Positions 45,030 through 47,320 of a stretch of DNA of 64,000 nucleotides are shown here, one piece after another (the stretch's first letter is position 1; each line of letters begins with the position of its first letter). The notes below the pieces were generated by a model. That model made no database searches and was not told the origin of the DNA. It saw only the letters and a list, made by a program, of their open reading frames with translations. The stretch is from Zetaproteobacteria bacterium CG1_02_55_237 (GTDB taxonomy: Bacteria; Pseudomonadota; Zetaproteobacteria; Mariprofundales; Mariprofundaceae): NCBI GenBank assembly GCA_001871195.1, contig MNXA01000054.1, forward strand, positions 1 through 64,000. The letters run 5' to 3'. Made by a program: the position numbers and the translations under genes.

Positions 45030-45779
45030 ATGAACAGCATTCTTGTATCCCTGCACCAGATGGTGCGCCCACTCTTGGGGGCCTTGCGCGACCTCACCCC
45101 CATTATCGTTGTCATCGTCGTTTTTCAGACCCTCGTCCTGCAACAGTCTGTTCCGAATATCGGCGGCATGATCGTCGGTTTTCTTTGCGTGCTTGTTGGT
45201 CTGGCACTATTTGTTCAGGGGCTGGAAAACGCCCTGTTTCCCATCGGTGAGAATCTGGCACATGCCTTTGCCGTTAAGGGGAGCGTGTCATGGTTGTTGC
45301 TGTTTGCCGTTCTGCTTGGCTTTGGCACAACCATTGCCGAACCGGCGCTGATTGCCATTGCAGCCAAGGCCGCGGACGTAGCCGCTGCGGCATCCCTTAT
45401 CGGAATGGATGGCGATTCCCGGGAAGCCTATGCCGATGGACTCAGGCTGAGCGTGGCTGTGTCCGTGGGCCTGTCCATTTTGATCGGTGTGCTGCGTATC
45501 CTGCGCGGTTGGCCACTGCCATATCTCATTATTGGCGGTTATCTGCTCATCGAAATCATGACGCCCTTCGCGCCCCCCGAAATCATTGGCATTGCCTATG
45601 ATGCCGGGGGCGTAACTACTTCAACGATTACCGTGCCGCTGGTCGCGGCCCTTGGCGTGGGGCTCGCCTCCTCCATTCAGGGGCGCAACCCGGTGCTCGA
45701 TGGTTTTGGCCTGATAGCACTTGCTTCACTGCTTCCGATGGTGTTCGTCATGCTCTATGGCCTGGTGGTGCTTGGATGA
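45030..45779 (+). CDS. DUF1538 membrane protein (first copy)
   Basis: A 249-residue inner-membrane protein with about seven hydrophobic segments. Signature motifs are GFGTTIAEPALIAIA (about 97-111) and AYDAGGVTTSTITVPLVAALG (about 189-209), followed by GRNPVLDGFGLIALASLLP. Their equivalents recur in the next gene, so the two are paralogous halves of what looks like a two-subunit or pseudo-symmetric transporter. Conserved glycines, T/S and the glutamate of AEP inside helices are compatible with a substrate path. No ribosome-binding site is evident. Ends overlap the second copy by 4 bases. Function is unknown; a PII-regulated transport role is inferred from neighbours. Confidence 0.85.
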   Translation: MNSILVSLHQMVRPLLGALRDLTPIIVVIVVFQTLVLQQSVPNIGGMIVGFLCVLVGLALFVQGLENALFPIGENLAHAFAVKGSVSWLLLFAVLLGFGTTIAEPALIAIAAKAADVAAAASLIGMDGDSREAYADGLRLSVAVSVGLSILIGVLRILRGWPLPYLIIGGYLLIEIMTPFAPPEIIGIAYDAGGVTTSTITVPLVAALGVGLASSIQGRNPVLDGFGLIALASLLPMVFVMLYGLVVLG

Positions 45780-46561
45780 TGGTCCTGCTGTTGGATATTT
45801 TCGATACCTTCCGCGCAACCATCGATGACGTCGCGCCCATCATCGGGACGCTTTTCTTTTTTCAGTACGTTGTACTCAAAAGGCCTTTGGTTAATTTTGA
45901 CCGTATCCTTATCGGCTTGTTCATGGTCGTGATTGGCCTGACCTTGTTTCTGGTCGGGCTTGAAAAAGCCATCTTTCCGCTTGGCGACGCCATGGCTCGA
46001 CAACTGACTGCCCCGGAGTTTCTCTATGCTGCCGGGCAGACACCGACCTACCTGTGGCAGGACTACTTTTGGGTATATGTGTTTGCCTTTTCCATCGGGT
46101 TTGCCACCACGGTGGCTGAGCCTGCGCTGATCGCCGTTGCGCTCAAGGCCGAGGATATTTCGGGTGGCGCCATTCCCGCCTTCGGCCTGCGCATGGCCGT
46201 GGCTATGGGGGTGGCCATTGGCGTGACCATCGGCTGTTTCCGCATCGTTAGCGGAACCTCTCTGTGGGTGTATATTGTCGTGGCTTATGTGGTGGTACTC
46301 CTGCAAACCGTGCGTGCGCCGAAGATGATTGTCCCGCTGGCCTTCGATTCCGGTGGTGTGATAACTTCGACTGTTACCGTGCCCTTGCTGGCGGCGCTCG
46401 GCCTCGGCCTGGCCAGTACCATACCGGGCCGCAGCCCGGTGCTGGATGGCTTCGGCCTGATCGCTTTCGCCAGCGTATTCCCGATTATAACTGTCCTCGC
46501 CTATGCCCAGTTTTCGAGCTGGCAGGCACGACAATCAAACAAGCAAGACAAGGAGGGGTAA
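45776..46561 (+). CDS. DUF1538 membrane protein (second copy)
   Basis: A 261-residue membrane protein paralogous to the preceding one: GFATTVAEPALIAVA (about 103-117), AFDSGGVITSTVTVPLLAALG (about 193-213) and GRSPVLDGFGLIAFASVFP match motif by motif. About seven hydrophobic segments. The start overlaps the first copy (ATGA) and a strong AAGGAGG site at its 3' end serves the PII-like gene. In other genomes the two halves may be fused in a single DUF1538 protein. Confidence 0.85.
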   Translation: MMVLLLDIFDTFRATIDDVAPIIGTLFFFQYVVLKRPLVNFDRILIGLFMVVIGLTLFLVGLEKAIFPLGDAMARQLTAPEFLYAAGQTPTYLWQDYFWVYVFAFSIGFATTVAEPALIAVALKAEDISGGAIPAFGLRMAVAMGVAIGVTIGCFRIVSGTSLWVYIVVAYVVVLLQTVRAPKMIVPLAFDSGGVITSTVTVPLLAALGLGLASTIPGRSPVLDGFGLIAFASVFPIITVLAYAQFSSWQARQSNKQDKEG

Positions 46562-46562
46562 G

Positions 46563-46913
46563 ATGCATTTCAAACTGATTATTGCACTGGTGGACGAAAG
46601 GCAGACCAAGGACATCATGCTGGCTGCACGTGAAGCCGGAGCTACCGGGGCAACGGTGGTTGGTGCCGCACGCGGCGAAGGGCTGGAACCGAAAAAGACA
46701 TTCTTTGGCATGAATCTGGAGGCACAGCGCGACATGCTGATGTTCATCGTCGAGGAGCACCTGAGCCGGCAGGTTCTGGAGCATATCGCTGCTATCGGCG
46801 GTTTCGAAGACAACCCTGGCAGTGGGCTAGCCTTTCAGCTTGATGTTGAAGATACGATTGGCCTCAGGAGTCAGATTGAGGTCATTTCTGAAGAGGTGGA
46901 GGAGGAAATATGA
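46563..46913 (+). CDS. PII-like signalling protein
   Basis: A 116-residue ferredoxin-fold protein of the P-II superfamily. The core is recognisable (MHFKLIIALVDERQTKDIMLAAREAGATGATVVGAARGEG, then MLMFIVEEHLSRQVLEHIAAIGG), but the long T-loop with the uridylylated tyrosine of GlnB is absent, and the nucleotide-binding loop is of the DNPGSGLAFQLDVEDTIGL type. It is therefore a PII-like protein, not a canonical nitrogen regulator. AAGGAGG lies just before ATG 46563. Such proteins commonly sit next to and gate transporters. Confidence 0.85.
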   Translation: MHFKLIIALVDERQTKDIMLAAREAGATGATVVGAARGEGLEPKKTFFGMNLEAQRDMLMFIVEEHLSRQVLEHIAAIGGFEDNPGSGLAFQLDVEDTIGLRSQIEVISEEVEEEI

Positions 46914-47320
46914 TGAGCGAACGGAAAATTATACGTGTGCGCGAGGTCATGAAGGAAAAGTTTGATCTGGTGGACGGACTTTCCACTGTGCGCGAGGTGC
47001 TCGAACACATGCACCATGTTGAGACCAAGTGTGTGATTGTCGACAAGCGCCACGAGGATGATGAATACGGTATTGTTGTGCTGGCCGATATTGCCCGATA
47101 TGTGCTGGCGGCAAACAAATCTCCGGATCGGGTCAGTCTTTACGAGGTGATGACCAAGCCGGCGGTCACTATCAACCCGGAAATGAACATCCGGCACGCC
47201 AGCGCCCTGTTTGCCAGACTTGGGTTGTCGCGTGCCCCGGTGGTTAATGGCACAGGCGAGATTATCGGCATCGTCAGCCACACCGACATGGTGCTCAAGG
47301 GCCTGATGAAGCTCTGTTAG
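46910..47320 (+). CDS. Tandem CBS-domain protein
   Basis: A 136-residue cytosolic protein made of two CBS domains (about 10-65 and 75-133): VREVMKEKFDLVDGLSTVREVLEHM, then YEVMTKPAVTINPEMNIRHASALF and GIVSHTDMVLKGL. CBS pairs bind adenosine nucleotides such as AMP or ATP. It overlaps the PII-like gene by 4 bases and completes the four-gene unit with the DUF1538 pair, where it may report energy state. Confidence 0.9.
   Translation: MMSERKIIRVREVMKEKFDLVDGLSTVREVLEHMHHVETKCVIVDKRHEDDEYGIVVLADIARYVLAANKSPDRVSLYEVMTKPAVTINPEMNIRHASALFARLGLSRAPVVNGTGEIIGIVSHTDMVLKGLMKLC

Follow-up and report, generated by a model that had tools for sequence, protein, structure and literature searches.

A DUF1538 membrane pair encoded with PII and CBS proteins: a candidate PII-gated cation/proton antiporter

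Introduction

The window analyzed here, i.e., the whole stretch of 64,000 nucleotides, contains an operon of four genes arranged on a single strand (forward) in the order umpA-umpB-PII-CBS (positions 45030-47320), which, judging from sequence comparisons, probably codes for a cation/proton antiporter gated by a dedicated PII protein that likely brakes it, with further input from an adenylate-sensing CBS protein (rough probability of 0.6). PII proteins are known controllers of nitrogen and carbon transporters, and transporters served by a PII of their own are already known. What would be new is the near-universal pairing of a PII with a family of Na+/K+/H+ antiporters, together with its CBS partner and with chains bearing multiple PII domains, all of which are undescribed as far as the searched literature shows: no paper linking PII or CBS to DUF1538 or UmpAB was found in a literature search whose coverage left most subscription journals outside. 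The linkage between PII and DUF1538 suggests a widespread bacterial on/off switch for ion exchange. If this reading is true, PII control would in many bacteria extend to monovalent cation/proton exchange, and thus to salt balance and the pH of the cytoplasm.

The umpA-umpB-PII-CBS Operon

The operon comprises the following features:

45030..45779, forward strand: umpA-like gene, coding for a DUF1538 membrane protein of 249 aa (PF07556, 7e-65)
45776..46561, forward strand: umpB-like gene, coding for a paralogous DUF1538 membrane protein of 261 aa (PF07556, 2e-64)
46551..46557, forward strand: AAGGAGG, ribosome-binding site of the PII gene (from the sequence)
46563..46913, forward strand: PII-family gene, coding for a protein of 116 aa devoid of cysteine (PF00543, 6e-11; AlphaFold2 model; conservation)
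46910..47320, forward strand: gene coding for a stand-alone protein of 136 aa with two CBS domains (PF00571, 4e-18; CBS-CP12, 5nmu, E 1e-21)

The start of umpB overlaps the end of umpA, the PII gene starts 1 base past the umpB stop with its strong ribosome-binding site placed before the start, and the start of the CBS gene overlaps the PII stop. An earlier reading of this DNA (the original prediction) had recognized two paralogous membrane proteins followed by PII-like and tandem CBS genes in overlapping or tightly spaced frames. Both observations hold: the motifs AEPALIA and GGV-TST-TVPL-AALG are common to the UmpA-like and UmpB-like proteins, the DUF1538 domain covers both at full length, and the two downstream products match the Pfam P-II and CBS families with the scores given above.

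The genes that we take from their translations to be ispG and hisS, upstream of the operon, and pheA, hisC, tyrA and aroA, downstream of it, are housekeeping genes. No specific gene family was found to recur around the four-gene core when 153 other loci were compared, the largest cluster of neighbors being a merged set of signaling-protein-like sequences, and a scan for promoters and terminators returned nothing exceeding chance. The operon itself lies far beyond chance, since its gene set and gene order are kept across phyla.

The Membrane Pair and Its Assayed Relative

The original prediction gave the substrate of the membrane pair as unknown, but a member of the family has already been assayed: UmpA and UmpB of Halomonas zhaodongensis, a DUF1538 pair, were described in 2017 as a heterodimeric, pH-dependent Na+(Li+,K+)/H+ antiporter (PMC5484666). 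The cloned fragment, which conferred both salt tolerance and antiport activity on E. coli, contains four ORFs, and neither a PII nor a CBS gene is among them (PMC5484666). As Halomonas UmpAB is active without these genes, PII and CBS would be modulators that are dispensable for transport.

The window proteins resemble the Halomonas pair in that they are two paralogous DUF1538 membrane proteins encoded by overlapping genes, each of which matches its own NCBIfam subunit model best (NF041627/NF041628). The UmpA-like protein scores 333 bits against the UmpA model and 180 bits against the UmpB model, and the UmpB-like protein scores 333 bits against UmpB and 202 bits against UmpA. They differ from it in that both scores are under the equivalog cut-offs (333 vs. 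490 bits for UmpA and 500 bits for UmpB), and in that the published work mentions no PII or CBS partner. The UmpA equivalog cut-off was reached by none of the 625 sampled genomes, among which the H. zhaodongensis locus itself was not found; in the genome that came closest, with 428 bits, PII and CBS genes adjoin those of UmpAB. On these profile matches, the window pair belongs to the DUF1538 family and is likely to function as UmpAB does, the transport activity being extrapolated from the relative. The AlphaFold2 model of a natural UmpA-UmpB fusion is confident in its N half and uncertain in relative placement (pTM 0.50). Foldseek searches with this model retrieved no solved structure at E < 0.2, and searching the PDB for DUF1538, by sequence and by profile, yielded no match.

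Linkage and Co-occurrence of PII and DUF1538

DUF1538 loci were gathered from three sources, namely an even sample of 398 genomes from the phylum of the window (Pseudomonadota), the 80 best-matching relatives among the named GTDB genomes, and samples drawn from Gammaproteobacteria and from two further phyla, taken as Desulfobacterota and Bacteroidota. Linkage profiles were built from proteins of the window and its genome and then extended over the sampled loci, and the counts were made on the 144 non-identical loci that had a downstream flank of 1.7 kb or more. A PII gene lies directly downstream of DUF1538 and on the same strand in 137 of these 144 loci, directly upstream in two others (L082 and L093) and in an overlapping frame in one (L142), and the four loci without an adjoining PII (L065, L066, L079, and L261) all belong to genomes that encode the same PII class elsewhere. 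The outcome to which the original prediction was most exposed, DUF1538 genes occurring mostly without PII neighbors, was thus looked for and is contradicted by the counts. The linkage is independent of the custom profiles, because each of 73 DUF1538-linked PIIs matches PF00543 independently, as does the window PII, and because the NCBI annotation agrees, other DUF1538-linked PIIs being labeled “P-II family nitrogen regulator.” With such a label, a role in nitrogen regulation may be wrongly read into these genes.

Co-occurrence was assessed in the 398 Pseudomonadota genomes with a threshold for the PII-class profile (E <= 1e-12) fixed ahead of the search. DUF1538 is present in 87 genomes and the PII class in 90, i.e., in 87 of 87 genomes with DUF1538 and in 3 of the 311 without it (G077, G140, and G143). 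Fisher's exact test returns p values of 4e-85 by genome and 3e-44 by genus, both of which are made too small by kinship, and the contrast of 87/87 vs. 3/311 stands without them. The weakest PII match in a DUF1538 genome was 8e-13, the second PII type being barely within the limit. The pairing is also found in Clostridia (Paraclostridium, Peptoclostridium, Vescimonas, Acetoanaerobium, and Subdoligranulum). Linkage and co-occurrence together lend support to the putative transporter with a dedicated PII partner that the original prediction had proposed. On a tree built from a short alignment with few outgroups, the DUF1538-linked PIIs fall on one side of a well-supported branch that parts them from the included GlnB/K and PII-NG sequences, and the PII class follows the DUF1538 type.

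Two of the exception genomes, both from a sister family, carry the PII and CBS genes as a pair that follows a malic-enzyme gene, away from UmpAB (L292:161-1001 and L293:141-955), which indicates that PII and CBS travel as one unit. The genome G497 has UmpA alone on one contig (L261) and an intact UmpB-PII-CBS set on another (L262); the umpA and umpB genes can therefore be unlinked. That PII-CBS pairs can sit away from UmpAB also suits an alternative in which the two proteins share the expression of UmpAB but have another target, such as an enzyme or a transcription factor, and would signal the ion status without contacting the antiporter. So does the location of two stand-alone PIIs near argB, whose product, N-acetylglutamate kinase, is a classical PII target. 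However, the adjacency is maintained across phyla, the PII class tracks the DUF1538 type on the tree, and this class is almost never encountered without DUF1538, so that action elsewhere is judged unlikely and a PII dedicated to UmpAB is preferred. The two stand-alone genes are both on the reverse strand (L291:4900-5274 and L294:4844-5191), with an SH3-like gene between each of them and argB; one of the two genomes, G077, has no DUF1538 match. DUF1538-DUF1538-PII operons were also observed on plasmids of Methylocystis (L298) and Chelativorans (L299), which were typed as mobilizable and conjugative.

The PII Protein

The AlphaFold2 model of the window PII adopts the PII fold (pLDDT 84.6), its T-loop being of low confidence, and the solved folds nearest to it are those of TTHA0516, SbtB, CPII, and classical PII. 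The original prediction held that the GlnB T-loop was lacking, but a T-loop exists (approximately residues 37-57); it is about 5 residues shorter than that of GlnB and has a conserved sequence of its own. Residues 44-57 rank among the best-conserved stretches of the PII homologues, suggesting that its partner is conserved as well. The window PII has neither the uridylylation nor the C-terminal signature of GlnB, in the patterns that we assume for them, whereas each of the three GlnB/K proteins encoded by the window genome has both. In the pocket of the homologues, the glycines are invariant and the GxG motif is kept, but the position of classical Lys90 is I/M/V/L and that of Arg101 is Gly in 73 of 73 sequences, and Arg103 is replaced in nearly all 73, mostly by A, S, or M. 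Since these residues, which hold the ATP phosphates in GlnB, are lost, the signal perceived by the PII may be other than a nucleotide.

The arrangement is reminiscent of GlnK-AmtB, in which the PII gene also adjoins that of its membrane transporter and the protein has a PII fold with a T-loop. On the other hand, the T-loop of the window PII is shorter, unrelated and devoid of the uridylylation site, the ATP-contact residues are lost, and AmtB and DUF1538 are different transporter families. SbtB-SbtA offers another precedent, with a divergent PII dedicated to one transporter and SbtB among the nearest solved folds. Here, though, the membrane partner is a DUF1538 pair instead of SbtA, the PII contains zero cysteines and hence no SbtB-type R-loop (the C-terminal cysteine loop of SbtB), and an extra CBS protein is encoded. 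The absence of an R-loop also bears on the notion that DUF1538 is a bicarbonate transporter under PII control, as SbtA is under SbtB, and serves inorganic carbon uptake. The original prediction listed inorganic carbon as one possible substrate in a host that it called an autotroph, and SbtB and CPII both serve carbon uptake. However, the one pair assayed within DUF1538 exchanges Na+, Li+, and K+ for H+ (PMC5484666), the family is frequent in Vibrio, Photobacterium, Colwellia and Clostridia, hosts that are not known to be autotrophs, and around the core no specific gene family is recurrent, be it of carbon fixation or otherwise. For these reasons, inorganic carbon is very improbable as the substrate, and cation/proton exchange is retained.

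PII-NG genes associated with CusA-type efflux genes provide a further case of a PII-family gene beside a transporter gene, but the tree places PII-NG apart from the DUF1538-linked PIIs and gives it a long branch. The genome of the window itself contains such a case on contig C10 (L008:1495-1806), where the end of a CusA-type efflux gene and a PII-NG-type gene overlap.

The CBS Protein

The nearest solved relative of the window CBS pair is the CBS part of cyanobacterial CBS-CP12 (5nmu), a protein reported to form a hexamer and bind AMP (PMC9406205). The window protein has no CP12 domain and, unlike CBS-CP12, lies in the context of an antiporter rather than of the Calvin cycle. Given the AMP binding of this relative, adenylate sensing, and more specifically AMP sensing, can reasonably be inferred for the window protein. 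Its second CBS domain carries S-H-T-D, an instance of the Ser-x-x-Asp motif, and its first has no Ser/Thr at the first motif position; across 44 homologues, the Ser and Asp of the CBS2 ligand motif are conserved only in part, at 73% and 57%, respectively. The nucleotide gating advanced in the original prediction is thus weakened on the side of the PII by the loss of Lys90, Arg101, and Arg103, and made plausible on the side of the CBS protein by its AMP-binding relative. A CBS gene is present in 99 of the 144 DUF1538 loci and accompanies only the UmpAB type. In Magnetococcales, umpAB-PII occurs without the small CBS gene (L138:3257-5894 and L134:2798-5464), and genes for two larger CBS-containing proteins lie upstream, on the same strand in L138 and on the opposite strand in L134. 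As a close relative of the CBS part of CBS-CP12, the window protein may also help to trace the origin of that fusion.

Proposed Mechanism

By analogy with their relative, UmpA and UmpB would pair in the membrane as a heterodimer and exchange Na+, Li+, or K+ for H+. The PII would form a trimer, as is expected from its family, and its short conserved T-loop would dock on the cytosolic face of UmpAB. Docking would change the activity of UmpAB, most likely by braking it, as GlnK does on AmtB and SbtB on SbtA; a brake is favored over an activator because UmpAB works alone and because of this analogy. The CBS protein would bind an adenylate, probably AMP, and relay the energy status of the cell to PII or to UmpAB, so that when energy is low the proton-consuming ion exchange would be halted, the purpose possibly being to spare the proton-motive force or to set pH.

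The near-obligate pairing and the fused two- and three-domain PII chains would also suit a permanent component, i.e., a PII that activates the antiporter or belongs to it as a stable structural subunit, instead of braking it. Nevertheless, the known transporter-bound PIIs, GlnK and SbtB, bind reversibly, which argues against such permanence. The probability of an activator or subunit is further lowered, to a small one, by Halomonas UmpAB, which worked in E. coli from a fragment without PII or CBS ORFs (PMC5484666). The existing E. coli test system for UmpAB makes control by PII, including the favored braking action, directly testable.

Two Types of DUF1538 Loci and Multi-PII Chains

DUF1538 loci are of two types. 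Loci of the UmpAB type have split genes or a fusion of about 500-560 aa, with one PII and usually a CBS gene. Loci of the second type often have a longer fused DUF1538 protein, with either two PII genes or one chain containing 2-3 PII domains, and no CBS gene was found downstream of them. The two sensors of the original prediction consequently apply in part: the CBS protein recurs with the UmpAB type, whereas the second type has 2-3 PII domains and no CBS downstream. The genome of the window has both types, as it carries, in addition to the UmpAB operon, a second-type locus on contig C1 (L011:5370-7828), in which two different PII genes come after the gene for a 584-aa fused DUF1538 protein; the score of the second PII is slightly below the Pfam cut-off. 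Elsewhere, three P-II stretches are recognized by Pfam in a single PII chain (L253:6465-7640). A single-chain PII pseudo-trimer of this kind would be unusual for PII, and natural repeats of this sort would permit a domain-by-domain study of the PII trimer.

A broader reading is advanced tentatively, at somewhat less than even odds. PII would be the near-obligate regulatory partner of the whole DUF1538 family in at least four phyla, with PII signaling reaching Na+/K+/H+ and pH homeostasis. The PII trimer would act on an asymmetric UmpA-UmpB pair and would itself have been made asymmetric repeatedly, through two PII genes or through two- and three-domain single chains, and its pocket would sense a signal other than MgATP/2-oxoglutarate.

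Long multi-PII chains beside DUF1538 were also observed in L245, L246, L258, L269, and L276, and two-domain PII chains in L239, L240, L249, L250, L295, L296, L300, and L301. Beside the second-type locus of the window genome, a CBS protein gene is divergently transcribed (L011:4750-5211).
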